DNA from: an uncultured Gammaproteobacteria bacterium
Lineage (GTDB): Bacteria; Pseudomonadota; Gammaproteobacteria; DRJJ01
DNA: 52,966 bases
Assembly (NCBI GenBank): GCA_947258795.1
Contig: CAMYJU010000015.1
Span: 1-52,966 of the forward strand
Reading direction: 5' to 3'
The position numbers and the translations under genes are program-made. Below are positions 26,920-39,725 of this stretch, in pieces. The stretch's first letter is position 1. Each line of letters opens with the position of its first letter. The notes below the pieces were generated by a model. The model did not search any database, was not told the DNA's origin, and saw only the letters and a program-made list of their open reading frames with translations.

Positions 26920-28083
26920 TCAAGCTGCTTTCTGCTCAGTTGTAAATGTCTTACATCCGGGCATGATGGTTTTGATGGCCAGTACGATATCCAGGGCAAT
27001 ATCGGTTAGCTGTGAATCATCGACGGCTACCCATGTGCGTTTCACCCTGTTTGTTTTTATGGTCTCCCTGATTTTGGGAAAGAGCAAGGCAATGCCATAA
27101 GAAAAGATGATCAGCATAAATGCGCCAAATGCCATACCGACCTGTTTGTAGTCTATTTTCCATTGTTGCTGTGCCAGGCTTTTCAGGTTTGAGTTGAAAA
27201 TAAAATTGGACCAACTGCTTGATTCGGCCTGAACAGTAATGCTGCCAGCTTGCTGGTTAATATTGATGCTGCATGCTGGCCCTTTTAATGCCCAGTTATG
27301 TTTTCTGGAGAGGGTGTCCTGTAGTACCGTACCTATTTCTTTTATTGCGCTTTCAACGGTAATGGTAGCAGGTACACTTAATGTGCCGGGTTTACCGGAT
27401 TTTTTATTTTCGGTCTTGCTATCTGGAGTTTGTGAGTCTGAGTCCGTTTTCAGTGAGTCTATTTCTCTTTCTATTTTGGCGAGCAAGTCATCACGTTTTC
27501 TGAAGCGCCTGATGAGTTCGTGTATATCGTCTATATCTTCCTGGTTGGACAGCCCTTGCTTCAGTTCAAGTAAAATTGCGGACTGTTCTTCAAAACCAAG
27601 TTTGTTTCTGGCCTCGATCCTGGTTCTCAGATCACCGAGATATGATACTGGGACCTCGGGTTCGTCCGGTAGCGGATCCGGCAAGGGCCACGGGCCCGGC
27701 AGGTTGCTCAGCGCCTTGTTTAAATCAAACGCAGCCTTCTTGTCCTGTTTCCGGTAGTCAACGTATTGAATGATGGATAGTTCCTTTGGCAACAGGTTGG
27801 TAGAAACACCGTCGGCTACCATGACAGGTAAAATGTTCTTGTTTAGTGAATGTGCATAAAGCCATTCCAGTTTGCAGGCATAGGAATCAAGCGAATGGGG
27901 GGAGACCGAGATAACAAACAGGTCACAGGCCCTGATTTGCTCCAGTATCCTTGTCCACCATGCCTGGCCACCACTCAGTTCCTTGTCTATCCATGTATTG
28001 TATCCCAGCTCGGCGAAATCAGCCGCCAGTGTATTGACGACTTCCTTGTTGTCTCGACTGTAACTTATGAAAATCTCCGTCAT
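26920..28083 (-). CDS. TIR-domain protein with C-terminal membrane segment
   Basis: 387 aa. The TIR domain (about 1-135) begins TEIFISYSRDN and has the putative NADase glutamate E73 in SYACKLEWLYA, the position of the catalytic Glu in SARM1 and prokaryotic TIR enzymes. Then come a Pro-rich hinge (GPWPLPDPLPDEPEVP), a helical region (about 155-210, FEEQSAILLELKQGL and RKRDDLLAKIEREID), a disordered Ser/Lys-rich stretch (about 211-240), a domain of unknown type (about 240-310), one hydrophobic segment (about 320-340) and a basic tail. AGGA lies 7 nt before the ATG. It forms a pair with the SLATT gene. No enzymatic activity is shown here; the call rests on motifs. Confidence 0.85.
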   Translation of the reverse strand: MTEIFISYSRDNKEVVNTLAADFAELGYNTWIDKELSGGQAWWTRILEQIRACDLFVISVSPHSLDSYACKLEWLYAHSLNKNILPVMVADGVSTNLLPKELSIIQYVDYRKQDKKAAFDLNKALSNLPGPWPLPDPLPDEPEVPVSYLGDLRTRIEARNKLGFEEQSAILLELKQGLSNQEDIDDIHELIRRFRKRDDLLAKIEREIDSLKTDSDSQTPDSKTENKKSGKPGTLSVPATITVESAIKEIGTVLQDTLSRKHNWALKGPACSININQQAGSITVQAESSSWSNFIFNSNLKSLAQQQWKIDYKQVGMAFGAFMLIIFSYGIALLFPKIRETIKTNRVKRTWVAVDDSQLTDIALDIVLAIKTIMPGCKTFTTEQKAA

Positions 28084-32886: not shown

Positions 32887-33416
32887 TTACAGTCGTGCCT
32901 CCCGGGTAGTATTTGACCATAAAATCTGATTCAGGTCGCGACAAAACTGTGCCGCGTCACGTTTTGTATGTCTGGAATCCAGGCGGCCGAGTTTCAAGTA
33001 TGGTGAAGTATTCGTTGGCATTGTCGGACACTGAGTCCGACATCATGATGATGTTCCAGATAGTTTTGCAGAAGCTTGCCATTCCATGCGTCCTGGCTAT
33101 ATCCCAGTTCACGAGGTAGTTTCAGGATGTCTTTCTGGACCTGCCTGAGTTGATCGTCACGCAGTTTGGCTGGACGCCCGGTTTTTTGATCATCCCTGAG
33201 TCCGTCTATACCATATTGTTTATAATAGTGAGCCCAACGCTCAACAGTTCTTGGGTGTTCGTCAAACCATTCTGCAACCTGGTAGCAACTGAACCCCTGA
33301 GCAAGCAATAACATACAGTGTATGCGATGCAAAAAGCGATGCTGGTGATTTTGGGCTACTTCCTGCCTGATAGCAGACTGTAATACTAAGGTATTAGGTA
33401 CTTCCAGTTTTCGCAT
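32887..33416 (-). pseudogene. IS630-type HTH protein with probable frameshift
   Basis: The intact frame 33416-32994 encodes 140 aa: MRKLEVPNTLVLQSAI, QGFSCYQVAEWFDEHPRTVERW (helix-turn-helix) and RQCQRILHHT. Relatives of this IS630/Rpn-type HTH family continue for about 30-40 basic residues after the RQCQR(L/I)xH motif. Here the frame stops, but another frame carries on directly with LKLGRLDSRHTKRDAAQF and reaches a stop at 32887, giving about 176 aa in total, the expected family size. A single indel near 32996-33005 would explain this. There is no DDE transposase domain and no flanking inverted repeat that I can see. Confidence 0.6.
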
Positions 33417-33633: not shown

Positions 33634-34263
33634 ATGAAGATAATGCATGCTGTGCTTTTGTTCCTGATCCTGGGTGTTTTGTCAGCCAACTCGAATGCCC
33701 TGATGTTGACCATGGAGCCCTCATCGACATTGATTTATGAAAACGATCCCGTATCGGTTGATATTGTTATTTCTGGACTCGATGCTGGTGGGCCAGAATC
33801 ACTGGGTGCATTTTCAATGGATGTTGTGTGGGGTGCCACTGTACTGGATTACGATTCGATCGAATTTGGCCCTTATCTGGGCAACCCTGATCCACTGGCA
33901 TTTGAGAGCGTTATCAGTGTCGATGATTCCAATGCCACCGGTAATCCTGCTGTTGTATCGCTGTTGGAAGTGTCACTGTTATCTTCCCTGGAACTGGACA
34001 TGATACAGAGCGACAGTTTCACATTGGCGACAATGAATTTCACAGGGGCTGCCCCCGGTTTCACTTTGATGAGAATGGAGAATGTTGTACTCAGTGATGC
34101 CTTTGGTAATGTGTTGGCTGATCCTGTGCTGGTGGGAACAGGTATAGAGGTGACGGAGCCTTCACCACTGGTAATGTTTATTTCGGCAGCTTTGATGTTA
34201 GGTTTCTTGATCAGTCGACAGTCTCGGGGTCAGTCACGTATATCTATTGATAATAGAGCCTAA
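33634..34263 (+). CDS. Cohesin-like exported protein with PEP-CTERM-like tail
   Basis: 209 aa. Signal peptide (about 1-22), then a cohesin-like beta-sandwich (about 25-170): DPVSVDIVISGLDAGGPESL, LGAFSMDVVWGATVLDYDSI and SFTLATMNFTGAAPG follow the pattern of type I/II cohesin domains. The C terminus is EPSPLVMFISAALMLGFLIS followed by RQSRGQSR, that is a proline motif, a hydrophobic helix and a basic tail, as in PEP-CTERM/exosortase substrates. A very good ribosome site (AAGGAGAGG). It is 21 nt before a dockerin-bearing gene, a natural partner. No exosortase gene is in the window. Confidence 0.75.
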   Translation: MKIMHAVLLFLILGVLSANSNALMLTMEPSSTLIYENDPVSVDIVISGLDAGGPESLGAFSMDVVWGATVLDYDSIEFGPYLGNPDPLAFESVISVDDSNATGNPAVVSLLEVSLLSSLELDMIQSDSFTLATMNFTGAAPGFTLMRMENVVLSDAFGNVLADPVLVGTGIEVTEPSPLVMFISAALMLGFLISRQSRGQSRISIDNRA

Positions 34264-34284
34264 TGCAGTACTGGGAGGTTTGTG

Positions 34285-36432
34285 ATGAATAAAAAATACA
34301 TAGCCTATTTATTGCTGGTATTTGGCTTAACGCTGATGGGTAGTACAAGGGGTGATACACTTTTACCAGGAGATTTTGTGTTAGGCACACAGCTTAGTCT
34401 GTATCACTTAAGTGCATCCGATGATAGCAAGTCATTGCTTGCAGCTGATTTTACGACTATTTCCGGTATTGCGATTACCCCGGGAGGACGTGAAATATTC
34501 ATCTCGGACCGGGATGGCGATCTGTTGATTAAGGTCGATCCGGAAACAGGCGCTAAATCAAAGGTTGATTCAAGCTATGACTTTATCGACCCTCATGGTG
34601 TCGTCATTGACTCGGACGGTAAGCTTGTTGTACTGGATAGAGGGGGGAAGGCTGTAGTACGTATTGACCCAGAAGATGGCAGTCACGAGGTGATTTCATC
34701 ACCTGCTATACACTGGAATTTTCCAAGAGACCCAACTGATATAGAAATCAATGACAACGGTGATATCTTTTTAGTCAGCAGTCGGGCAGGGGAAGGTGTT
34801 ATCAGGATAGATGCGGTTACCAATGAATTATCCACAGTATCTTCAGGCGGTGACTTTATCAATCTGTTTGGTATCACACTGAATCAGGATGGTGATATTT
34901 TTGTTGTTGAATGGCTTGTCCCTGGTGGTACGGTTTTCCATGTAAATCCAAATACGGGTGATCAGACAGTCGTTTCCAGTGGTGGTGACTTTCGAACCCC
35001 AGTAGATATAGCACTGGGGCTTAATGAGGAAATATATGTTGCCGATGCAGAAGCCTTTTTCGAAGGTGCGCTATTTCAAATAGATCCTGAAGATGGATCA
35101 CAGACTATTGTTTCATTGTCTGATCAGGACCGGGAACCCTTGGGCTTTCTTCAGGTGGCTATCGTCGAACCTGGTGAAGTCAGATTTAAGGTTCTGAGTG
35201 ATAATACCTGGAAATCTTATGATTCTTTCCAGTCAGGCTGGCATTTACCGGGCTTTGATGACTCCGGGTGGCGCAATGCGTTTGCCCCTTATCCTGATTC
35301 CGGAATACCGCCCGGTAACATCATACCTGGTACCAATGCTGTGTTCATGTGGGATTTCCCGGCGTATCCACCTGATCCACCACTGAATGGGCATGATGGT
35401 CCAGATGAAACCTGGTACAGGAAGACGGTTTCCATCCCGGCAACCAGCGATAATATTGTAGATGCAACGGCTATTATTGGGGCCGATGACGACTTTGACT
35501 TCTATGTAAATGGAAACCTTGTTTTCTCGGACCGGGATGGGACTGCTGAGACAGCACCCTTTGTTCTCGATATCAAGTCCTACCTGCACATCGGTGATAA
35601 TCAGCTTGCAATCTATGCAAAAGATGCGTTGCCACTGCTTTTTGAATGGGTTCTTGTTGACATGACTATCGATGTTAAACTGACGGGGATTAAAGGGGAC
35701 TTCAATAGCGATGGATGCATTGACCGGGGTGATCTGACGATATTGATCAACGAGCTTCGCAATCCGGCACCGGATTCACAGGTGTTCGATCTTAACCTGG
35801 ATGGTGTGATCAATGTGGCCGATGCCAGATTCCTGGTCACCCTGTTCACCAATCCGCAGGGTATCGCATGTGACCAGAAACTTGATATAAAATCAACGGC
35901 TGCATTTACGGCCAGACTGCTTGATGGCCATAATGTCGTTGTCGGTACCGGGGATCGAAGTACCTTGTTCGTTAAAAAGTCAGCTGAGGACAGGGTGGTT
36001 CTGGAATTTGATGTATCGAACCAGGCGCCAAGAACTGATCCAGTTTACCTGAACTTTTATACAGACAATATGGATCGCCCGAATTTTTCCGTATTGTCCT
36101 TATATGTGTTTGAGGCAGATGGAATTGTTCGGGCAGATGATTTTTTCAAGACAGATTATTATTTATTCTCATTTACCGATAATGGTGAAAGTCCTGAAAA
36201 CTATGATCCTGTTATATGCACAGCAGGAGGTCCAATTCCACCAGGTTGTAACAATAATCATTTTTCTGTGGATGTTACAGAGGTATATAATTACTTTGTA
36301 GCCAGAGGTAAGCAGTTTGTCGGGTTTTTAATTCTGGCTGAGACTACGGATGCCCGATATGTCATGAATGGAGGCGATGTGCTCCAGCCTGCGTTAAGTT
36401 CAGAGCTGCTTGAAGCATTACCTGTCCCATGA
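34285..36432 (+). CDS. Exported beta-propeller protein with dockerin domain
   Basis: 715 aa with a signal peptide (about 1-25). Residues about 30-300 are repeated blades of a Vgb/NHL-type propeller (IEINDNGDIFLVSSR, ITLNQDGDIFVVEW, IALGLNEEIYVADAE), each followed by a (G)xxxxVSSGGDF-like turn. Residues about 300-465 look like a galactose-binding jelly roll (WHLPGFDDSGWRNAF, TWYRKTVSIPA, DFDFYVNGNLVF). A dockerin-type repeat pair follows (about 472-530): DFNSDGCIDRGD and DLNLDGVINVAD, both with the Ca-binding D-x-N-x-D-G pattern. The last 180 residues resemble a DNRLRE-type beta domain. ATG 34285 has GGGAGG 6 nt upstream. Catalytic activity is not evident. Confidence 0.8.
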   Translation: MNKKYIAYLLLVFGLTLMGSTRGDTLLPGDFVLGTQLSLYHLSASDDSKSLLAADFTTISGIAITPGGREIFISDRDGDLLIKVDPETGAKSKVDSSYDFIDPHGVVIDSDGKLVVLDRGGKAVVRIDPEDGSHEVISSPAIHWNFPRDPTDIEINDNGDIFLVSSRAGEGVIRIDAVTNELSTVSSGGDFINLFGITLNQDGDIFVVEWLVPGGTVFHVNPNTGDQTVVSSGGDFRTPVDIALGLNEEIYVADAEAFFEGALFQIDPEDGSQTIVSLSDQDREPLGFLQVAIVEPGEVRFKVLSDNTWKSYDSFQSGWHLPGFDDSGWRNAFAPYPDSGIPPGNIIPGTNAVFMWDFPAYPPDPPLNGHDGPDETWYRKTVSIPATSDNIVDATAIIGADDDFDFYVNGNLVFSDRDGTAETAPFVLDIKSYLHIGDNQLAIYAKDALPLLFEWVLVDMTIDVKLTGIKGDFNSDGCIDRGDLTILINELRNPAPDSQVFDLNLDGVINVADARFLVTLFTNPQGIACDQKLDIKSTAAFTARLLDGHNVVVGTGDRSTLFVKKSAEDRVVLEFDVSNQAPRTDPVYLNFYTDNMDRPNFSVLSLYVFEADGIVRADDFFKTDYYLFSFTDNGESPENYDPVICTAGGPIPPGCNNNHFSVDVTEVYNYFVARGKQFVGFLILAETTDARYVMNGGDVLQPALSSELLEALPVP

Positions 36433-37178: not shown

Positions 37179-39725
37179 ATGCCTGATGCAGTGTATCGCA
37201 TATGGTGTCAATTATACGATAAATTCACAATGTGGTTCCAATCCAGATTCAAGTCCTTACGCCTGCGCTTTATAGTCATGACAGGCGCAGTCACATTACT
37301 TATTTTAATTACTGCGTTTTACTCTATTCTGGAATTAAACCAGACACGGTCAATATCAGAAGCCAATTTAATCCAGCGTCAGAAAGTGCTTGTCGTGACA
37401 AAGCAGATTCGTCTGCTTCTAAGTCATATGTACAAATCCATGGATTTATTCCTGCTTGAGCCATCAGAAGAAAAATACAAAAACGCGATGACTGATAATT
37501 ATGACCGTGTTCTTAAGGAGATTCAGTCGTTATATACCCTGGATGTGTCAAGAAAGAGTAAGCTGGACGAGGTCTCAGACAAGCTATCTGGTCTCGGAAA
37601 TCAGCTTGAGGTCCTGATACAGACAAGACGTGACCCTGCTAAGCAGTATCCTTCCATGAATGTAGGTAGTGAAGTCATGCAGCCTAACAGAAACAAAGTA
37701 AATAATGCGTTCGGTATCGCAATTGAGGAGTTGGAGTCAGAAAATACGCTTACTAAAAACCCTGAAGTGTACCAATCTATTACAGAGGCAAGACATTTGT
37801 GGGGCCAGTTGTTATCCAATTTCCGGCTGTATCTTGCTAATCGCGTAGGTTCATTCAATGTGGATTCACTGAGTGTTCAGGAAAATGGCATAGACACTCT
37901 TTTCACTGAATTGAATGTCAGACTGGAAAAGATACTGGAACTGGATGAACAAGGTTTACTGGGTTTTGAAACAGCAGATGCCATGAGTGAAGCGAAGCTG
38001 GGTACTACCGCATGGTATAACGGGTTTAGGCATGCCAGAGAGATAAACAGGTCAAATCGCTGGCGTATGGACTCCGTCATAATCCAGACCGAAATTGCAC
38101 CCAGATTTGAACAGATTAATGACCTGGTAGATGAAATAGAAAAACAGCACAGCGCATCGCTTGAAGAAGACATCGATAACATCAGTGTCATTGCCGAACA
38201 AAGTAACTGGAAACTGCTGTTCCTCGCATTGATGTCGGTTGTTTTTATGTTTCTGGTAGTGCTGCTTACCCAGAAACTGGTTTTTACCCCAATAGTATCG
38301 GTGTCGAGGGCGATGAGAGCGCAGGCGATGGGCAAGAGCACGCAGGACCTTCCTCCCGGCAGAACGACAGAAACACGAGGTCTGATTGACGCGTTTAACG
38401 AAATGTACCGTCAAATCAATGTTCGTCAGTCAGAGCTGGAGTACCGGGCCATGCATGATGCCCTTACGTCCTTGCCGAACAGAACTCTGCTGTTTGACCA
38501 CATTCAGCATGATATACAACTGGCACAGCGATTGAATCAGCAGGTATGTCTAATGATGATCGACCTTGATCGATTTAAAGAGGTCAATGATACCCTTGGC
38601 CATGCTGTTGGTGATATGTTCCTGGTCGAGGTAGGGAAGCGTCTTTTATCGGTATTGCGTGAAACAGATACGGTAGCCAGGCTGGGTGGGGATGAATTTT
38701 CGGTACTGCTCCCGAATATGGGAGAGGTAGAAGCAAAAGATGTTGCAGGAAAAATCCTTGCTGCGCTAAATGAGCCTGTGAAAATTGAAAGATATGAACT
38801 GCCATGTTCTGCCAGTATAGGAATTACCAGCTATCCGAAGGACGGACAGGATGCGAAAACCCTGTTGCAGCACTCAGATGTTGCCATGTATATGGCCAAA
38901 CGCAGGAAAACAGGATATGCAATCTATGACAAGGATAAGGATCTTTATAGTCTCAAACGGCTTGAGCTGGTTAATGAGCTGCGTGAAGCTATAGATAAAG
39001 ACATGCTGTCACTAGTGTTTCAGCCAATAGTAAACATGCAGGATAAGTCATTGCTATACGTTGAGACCCTGCTGCGCTGGGAACACCCGGTGCATGGTGC
39101 CATTTCCCCGGATCAGATCATTGATATGGCGGAGCAAACAAATCTGATAGCACCACTGACTTACTATATTCTGGAAAAGTCATTACAGCAGAGGAAAAAA
39201 TGGCAGCAGCACGACAAGGCTATACAAATATCAGTTAATCTCTCCATGCATAATCTGCGTGATAAGGATCTGGTTGATAAAATCAAAACTATTCTGCATA
39301 AGAATCAATTATCAGGTGAAGGTCTGCTTCTGGAGATAACCGAAAGTGCGATGATGTCGAATCCAGGCCAGGTCATCGATGTACTGGCAGAACTGGAGGA
39401 CCTGAATATTCAGGTGGCCGTTGATGATTTTGGCACCGGATTTTCGTCCCTGTCTTATCTGAAAAAGCTGCCGGTACATGTACTGAAAATCGACCGGTCT
39501 TTTATCTATGATCTTGAGAGGGATTTGAACGACCAGGCGATAGTGCGGGCAACGCTGAGACTGGGGCATGACCTTGGTCTGAAGGTGATTGCGGAAGGCG
39601 TAGAAACACGAGAAGTGCAGAATTTCCTGCAAAAAGAAGGCTGTGATGCGATTCAGGGATACTATATCAGTCCGCCAGTAACGGCTGCCTCACTGGGGGC
39701 ATGGCATGGTAAAAATTACCATTAG
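37179..39725 (+). CDS. Membrane GGDEF-EAL protein with large periplasmic sensor
   Basis: 848 aa. TM1 about 29-49, a helical periplasmic sensor (about 50-345), TM2 about 347-367, a HAMP-like region (about 368-425), a GGDEF domain with canonical GGDEF (about 506) and DRFKEVNDTLGH, and an EAL domain in which the signature is ETL (E629, YVETLLRW), with the catalytic set ITESAMM, DDFGTGFSSL, LKIDRSF and VIAEGVET kept. Both activities are possible. The start is not well supported by a ribosome site; ATG 37230 (MWFQSRF) is an alternative. No FliA-type promoter is seen, unlike others in this window. Confidence 0.9.
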   Translation: MPDAVYRIWCQLYDKFTMWFQSRFKSLRLRFIVMTGAVTLLILITAFYSILELNQTRSISEANLIQRQKVLVVTKQIRLLLSHMYKSMDLFLLEPSEEKYKNAMTDNYDRVLKEIQSLYTLDVSRKSKLDEVSDKLSGLGNQLEVLIQTRRDPAKQYPSMNVGSEVMQPNRNKVNNAFGIAIEELESENTLTKNPEVYQSITEARHLWGQLLSNFRLYLANRVGSFNVDSLSVQENGIDTLFTELNVRLEKILELDEQGLLGFETADAMSEAKLGTTAWYNGFRHAREINRSNRWRMDSVIIQTEIAPRFEQINDLVDEIEKQHSASLEEDIDNISVIAEQSNWKLLFLALMSVVFMFLVVLLTQKLVFTPIVSVSRAMRAQAMGKSTQDLPPGRTTETRGLIDAFNEMYRQINVRQSELEYRAMHDALTSLPNRTLLFDHIQHDIQLAQRLNQQVCLMMIDLDRFKEVNDTLGHAVGDMFLVEVGKRLLSVLRETDTVARLGGDEFSVLLPNMGEVEAKDVAGKILAALNEPVKIERYELPCSASIGITSYPKDGQDAKTLLQHSDVAMYMAKRRKTGYAIYDKDKDLYSLKRLELVNELREAIDKDMLSLVFQPIVNMQDKSLLYVETLLRWEHPVHGAISPDQIIDMAEQTNLIAPLTYYILEKSLQQRKKWQQHDKAIQISVNLSMHNLRDKDLVDKIKTILHKNQLSGEGLLLEITESAMMSNPGQVIDVLAELEDLNIQVAVDDFGTGFSSLSYLKKLPVHVLKIDRSFIYDLERDLNDQAIVRATLRLGHDLGLKVIAEGVETREVQNFLQKEGCDAIQGYYISPPVTAASLGAWHGKNYH

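Follow-up and report, generated by a model that had tools for sequence, protein, structure and literature searches.

Two adjacent genes of an uncultured gammaproteobacterium, here called P1 and P2, are likely to encode a cohesin–dockerin pair in which a single, sorted cohesin would clip a cargo protein to the cell surface or to exopolysaccharide. Binding, tail processing and location are inferred in this reading. The pair lies within a 52,966-nt stretch of DNA (hereafter, the window), taken from the forward strand of contig CAMYJU010000015.1 in the assembly of an uncultured Gammaproteobacteria bacterium (DRJJ01, GCA_947258795.1).

The P1/P2 gene pair and its surroundings

The features of the two genes, in window coordinates, are as follows.
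33634-34263 (+): P1 ORF, 209 aa
33634..33699 (+): P1 signal-peptide-like N-terminus, aa 1-22, read from the residues (MK, hydrophobic core, ANSNA)
33700..34152 (+): likely P1 cohesin domain, about aa 23-173 (PF00963 matches of homologues, profile matches in the PDB, fold of relative L050, pLDDT)
34153..34230 (+): P1 PEP-CTERM-like sorting tail, TEPSPLVMFISAALMLGFLISRQSRG (conservation of P176 and P178, sub-threshold TIGR02595 match, PF07589 matches of homologues)
34261..34263 (+): P1 stop codon
34285-36432 (+): P2 ORF, start ATG at 34285
34285..34356 (+): P2 signal-peptide-like N-terminus, likewise read from the residues
34357..35169 (+): P2 NHL-type beta-propeller (PF01436, 45.5 bits for the segment by itself; Foldseek)
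35170..35685 (+): P2 GH2 N-terminal-like sugar-binding jelly roll (PF02837, 28.6 bits on the isolated segment)
35686..35883 (+): P2 type I dockerin (PF00404; 56% identity to the dockerin of the L023 pair)
35698-35733 (+): P2 Ca loop 1, DFNSDGCIDRGD
35788-35823 (+): P2 Ca loop 2, DLNLDGVINVAD
35884..36429 (+): P2 C-terminal domain, weakly DNRLRE/Disaggr-repeat-like (NF033679 and PF06848, both sub-threshold)

P1 and P2 are separated by 21 nt and share a reading frame, and a ribosome-binding-like motif (GGGAGG) precedes the P2 ATG. The two ORFs, their adjacency and their spacing had been proposed in an earlier note made from the sequence alone, and all were confirmed. A search for a sigma-54 (-24/-12) promoter 5' of P1 gave a score no better than those of random window positions. 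The N-terminal part of an IS630-family transposase (76 bits; 32994-33416, -) lies immediately upstream of the pair, and a same-genus genome (G001, 81% complete) lacks both P1 and P2; given these two observations, a recent gain of the pair is possible. Downstream, a GGDEF/EAL protein is encoded at 37179-39725 (+), although a cyclic-di-GMP tie to surface display is a mere thought. Elsewhere in the window (26920-28083, -), a protein with a transmembrane segment has an N-terminus that looked TIR-like, by eye only.

P1 as a probable cohesin

P1 is likely to be a member of the cohesin family, judging from the fold of a relative and the profile matches of its homologues, with P1 alone remaining unmatched. 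Searched by itself, P1 matched no Pfam family, including Cohesin (PF00963); its own genome gave no matches to PF00963, and P1 as a single query matched nothing among the genome contigs. A P1 relative was found in a second genome (E 5e-8), and the resulting two-sequence profile, run on 369 genomes of the class, identified 12 positive genomes whose family members were aligned (alignment A2). PF00963 was matched by nine of these 12 members (best E 2.7e-7), and the top PDB matches of the A2 profile were cohesins (C. cellulolyticum scaffolding protein 1g1k, 2vn5 and scaffoldin C), with modest E values of 0.02-0.06. The cohesin of locus L048 scored 25.4 bits, above the PF00963 gathering cut-off of 24.1, and P1 is 39% identical to homologue L023, which lies beside the dockerin gene of genome G285. 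The cohesin-like sandwich claimed in the earlier note is supported by PF00963 for most of the family, and P1 itself gave no match.

Structure prediction was consistent in the relative L050, whose cohesin was modelled by AlphaFold2 with pLDDT mostly 92-98 and superposed on CaCohA2 (6kgc) with a Z score of 17.5 and an rmsd of 2.0 Å over 139 residues. The top 48 entries of this fold search were all cohesins or cohesin-bearing chains. In the AlphaFold2 model of the window pair, most of the P1 region had pLDDT of about 88-97; propeller matches filled the whole list in the fold search of this model and none was returned for the P1 part.

P2 carries a type I dockerin within a propeller protein

By profile, the P2 module is a genuine dockerin of type I, and both of its Ca loops are intact. 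Dockerin_1 (PF00404) scored 32 bits against a cut-off of 22.9, and 36.4 bits in the genome-wide search, where P2 was the sole match. Both loops are canonical, with acidic or amide residues at loop positions 1, 3, 5 and 12, and their aspartates are invariant or nearly so across the dockerin alignment (A3). Matches of the A3 profile in the PDB included the cellulosomal dockerin 2y3n (1.1e-6), with EF-hand proteins weaker; the two best matches were chains named serine protease, each carrying two such repeats. The dockerin helices were predicted with pLDDT of about 57-74 in the window model and 84-96 in L050. The claim of two Ca-binding dockerin repeats in P2 was thus upheld, since both loops fit the Ca-ligand pattern, with Ca binding itself an inference from the sequence.

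The identities of the remaining domains were established with differing strength. NHL scored 36 bits in whole P2 (cut-off 20), and Foldseek matched the window model to Pizza/NHL propellers (E 5e-12). The GH2 sugar-binding-like domain (PF02837) scored 26 bits in whole P2, and only the segment alone, at 28.6 bits, passed the cut-off of 28. The P2 C-terminus reached 12.7 bits with NF033679 and 15.5 bits with PF06848, both under cut-off. The propeller and jelly roll described earlier therefore held, whilst the DNRLRE-like end is weak and sub-threshold only. P2 gave no match to plasmids.

The putative P1 sorting tail and the exosortase

The C-terminus of P1, which ends with TEPSPLVMFISAALMLGFLISRQSRGQSRISIDNRA, is called PEP-CTERM-like only, because the tail scored 7.3 bits against TIGR02595, below the cut-off of 16. 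In the A2 alignment of the tail, P178 is invariant and P176 nearly so, and PEP-CTERM (PF07589) was matched by 10/12 family members. About 10 additional residues follow the basic cluster of the P1 tail.

The exosortase of the same genome exceeds the PF09721 and TIGR02602 cut-offs. Its best match is XrtA (174 bits), under that model's cut-off of 208. It lies in a row of genes encoding PrsK (TIGR02916), PrsR (TIGR02915), the XrtA-like exosortase (TIGR02602) and PrsT (TIGR02917), and the genome encodes at least one further protein with a clear PEP-CTERM tail (L005, VSEPSALYLLGLGLLGLIFTRKRKA). The presence of this cluster is shown; processing of the P1 tail is inferred. The earlier reading of the tail as PEP-CTERM-like was therefore not borne out at cut-off for P1 itself, was borne out for most homologues, and an exosortase is nonetheless present.

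Across the class, an exosortase was present in 117/369 genomes, in 9/12 P1-positive genomes and in 12/14 dockerin-positive genomes, the last being a significant excess over the overall occurrence (P = 3e-5). None was detected in three P1-positive genomes, G126, G196 and G285, the last of which is only 85% complete.

Conservation of the pairing

The adjacency of P1 and P2 is far above chance, as a dockerin gene adjoins P1 in 11/12 P1-positive genomes among the 369 of the class. Besides the window, the neighbourhoods of the 11 other P1 homologues were inspected, and in 10 of them the cohesin gene has as its same-strand neighbour a gene for an exported protein with a dockerin (the two are about 0.8 kb apart in L025). 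Genome G126 (L024) has a lone cohesin/PEP-CTERM gene, with no dockerin of this kind and no detected exosortase. Run over the same 369 genomes, the dockerin profile gave 14 positives, 11 in common with P1. In two further genomes, G139 and G347, the dockerin gene is immediately followed by a divergent gene of the cohesin/PEP-CTERM type (E 4e-25 and 3e-10), so 13/14 dockerin-positive genomes are paired. The association was highly significant (Fisher test, P about 6e-22), uncorrected for shared ancestry, though many families are spanned.

An independent scan of species genomes used only five dockerin sequences (A4) as query and returned 42 loci, some of which (L033, L047, L048) are the same as loci of the class survey. 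The cohesin profile matched an adjacent or near gene in 27/42. These paired loci span Nitrospiria and Thermodesulfovibrionia (so reaching Nitrospirota), Deferrisomatales, Zoogloeaceae, Accumulibacter and Methylocaldum. No cohesin was found nearby by profile in the other 15/42 loci; at three of these the dockerin gene instead adjoins a gene for another PEP-CTERM protein. The co-occurrence of the two genes was therefore positive in both directions, and the gene order and kept pairing are shown. Cohesin distances were correlated with those of the partner dockerins (Mantel r 0.40, 0/2000 permutations), a result confounded by shared ancestry.

Two particular arrangements were observed among these loci. 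In L052, L053 and L059 a dockerin gene is followed by a PEP-CTERM gene to which the cohesin profile matches in the tail only, and which may represent another type of partner for dockerins. In L055, from Nitrospirales NPIRA02, two cohesin and two dockerin genes occur in a row.

Cargo variety and gene geometry

The cargo attached to the dockerin differs greatly between loci. This includes a glucose/sorbosone dehydrogenase (L023, in G285), a subtilase (L026), weak Ig-like domains (L027), IgGFc-binding and Big_1 domains (L028), a giant repeat protein (L029), a GDSL lipase (L030) and, by eye, an RHS/PASTA-like protein (L032); the cargo of L022, L025 and L031 had no Pfam match. At the window locus the cargo may be non-enzymatic, as suggested earlier, whilst the dehydrogenase, subtilase and lipase show that sister loci do carry enzymes. 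The G285 protein and P2 share no cargo homology outside their dockerins, which are 56% identical over 61 aa; this shows that dockerin and cohesin travel together whilst the cargo changes. Many of these dockerins escape current models, with Pfam Dockerin_1 significant in just 2/18 sister cargo proteins scanned. The IgGFc_binding domain (PF17517) was found as dockerin cargo at two separate loci, L028 and L037.

The position of the dockerin within the cargo protein was strongly associated with the side on which the cohesin gene lies (P = 3e-7). With a C-terminal dockerin, the cohesin gene was downstream in 18 cases and upstream in three; with an N-terminal dockerin, it was upstream in 15 and downstream in none. 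In almost every case the end that codes for the dockerin points towards the cohesin gene, as though both were one movable cassette, which remains a possibility; the geometry could also reflect transfer of one piece of DNA without any binding. The window locus itself breaks the rule, its dockerin being internal to P2. Cargo with a C-terminal dockerin stops at most a few residues after it, which leaves no room for a sorting tail and agrees with a cohesin supplying the tail. At one locus (L028, 7328-17493), dockerin genes flank a single cohesin gene on both sides, with the dockerin C-terminal in the upstream protein and N-terminal in the downstream one.

Proposed mechanism and rival explanations

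In the proposed mechanism, P1 would be exported and its C-terminal tail handled by the XrtA-type exosortase of the genome, leaving a single cohesin exposed on the cell surface or within exopolysaccharide. P2, which lacks a sorting tail, would be exported via its own signal peptide, and its dockerin would bind the P1 cohesin in a Ca-dependent manner, holding P2 in place. The cargo on display would be the propeller and sugar-binding domains, which would probably serve to bind sugars or matrix. Physical binding, Ca dependence and the role of the cargo are inferred. For structure prediction of the pair, read-through chains were made of P1, stop and P2 from the window and of the same arrangement in L050, with stops read as Q or W; these are artificial and no biological read-through is claimed. 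AlphaFold2 folded the domains, and the pTM values (0.55 and 0.40) were too low to support a fixed arrangement or to argue for an interface; direct binding is not shown. The earlier proposal that P1 holds P2 at the surface in a non-cellulosomal role is thus supported by the domain identities, the exosortase and the co-occurrence, and the binding itself is not shown.

Among the alternatives, a release of processed P1 into exopolysaccharide, with the pair then cross-linking cargo to the matrix by analogy with proposals for flocculation PEP-CTERM proteins, differs from the preferred explanation only in final location, and the two overlap. It remains possible, there being no direct evidence of location. 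In its favour, the PEP-CTERM protein PepA promotes polysaccharide retention and floc formation in Aquincola (PMC9850573), PEP-CTERM systems are tied to EPS loci (PMC1569441), and P2 has a GH2N-like sugar-binding domain. A complex could also form with P1 uncleaved and kept in the inner membrane by its hydrophobic tail, acting as a periplasmic tether. The weak PEP-CTERM match of the P1 tail and its extra residues after the basic cluster speak for this, as do G196 and G126, which keep a tailed cohesin without a detected exosortase. However, it is unlikely in view of the PEP-CTERM matches of most homologues, the PrsK-PrsR-XrtA-like-PrsT cluster and the co-occurrence of dockerin and exosortase.

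The two genes might instead simply be transcribed together, without any binding between their products; the dockerin would then be only a Ca-stabilised module or bind another target. This view is favoured by the absence of a confidently predicted interface and by the existence of dockerin loci at which the neighbouring PEP-CTERM gene does not encode a cohesin. We consider it improbable, given that the adjacency is reciprocal and recurs across numerous families and phyla whose cargo is unrelated, and that the genome has no other cohesin by PF00963. The same two domain families would also serve a genuine cellulosome-like system that breaks down polysaccharide, but such a system is all but excluded: there is one cohesin per anchor and one dockerin in the genome, no multi-cohesin scaffoldin was found in the genome by PF00963, and the cargo is mostly not glycoside hydrolases.

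Relation to known systems and significance

The pair resembles cellulosomal pairs (CaCohA2-CaDoc0917, 6kgc; C. cellulolyticum, 1g1k) in its cohesin fold (L050, Z 17.5 and 16.6) and in a dockerin with two EF-hand-like loops. Unlike cellulosomes, the P1/P2 system has one cohesin per anchor, an exosortase-type tail, a Gram-negative host and one cargo per locus, with no scaffoldin. Cohesins and dockerins outside cellulosomes have long been listed, with function unknown (PMC5244752, citing Peer et al. 2009); P1/P2-type genes differ from these listed modules in that they lie side by side with a kept geometry, their cohesin bears a sorting tail and the cargo varies. P1 shares a signal peptide and PEP-CTERM-like tail with proteins of the PEP-CTERM/exosortase XrtA system (PMC1569441) and PepA (PMC9850573), and its genome shares the PrsK-PrsR-XrtA-like-PrsT genes of the former. 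It differs from that system in having no sigma-54 promoter signal found upstream. PEP-CTERM proteins were described as mostly encoded in single-gene operons (PMC1569441), and the founding PEP-CTERM paper (Haft 2006, PMC1569441) mentions neither cohesin nor dockerin. In the literature collection searched, which did not include Peer et al. 2009, PEP-CTERM combined with cohesin or dockerin was not found, and exosortase and dockerin were met together only in work on methanotrophic archaea. Within these limits, the components are known and the combination of one anchor with swappable cargo appears to be undescribed.

A bolder reading, towards which the balance tips only slightly, is that these loci represent a widespread, undescribed plug-in system for surface display in Gram-negative bacteria, with an exosortase-sorted single-cohesin anchor and dockerin cargo encoded next door, in which the cohesin gene and the part coding for the dockerin would stay linked so that fresh cargo could be slotted in. 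The pairing as a conserved system is new, and its side-by-side halves in dozens of unrelated bacteria suggest, as an inference from sequence alone, a general way to fix proteins to the surface or matrix. This would possibly explain how exosortase bacteria attach proteins that have no sorting tail of their own, and the pair could serve as a ready-made Gram-negative display tool. A two-gene anchor/cargo unit tied to exosortase sorting gives non-cellulosomal cohesins and dockerins a concrete and easily tested role.
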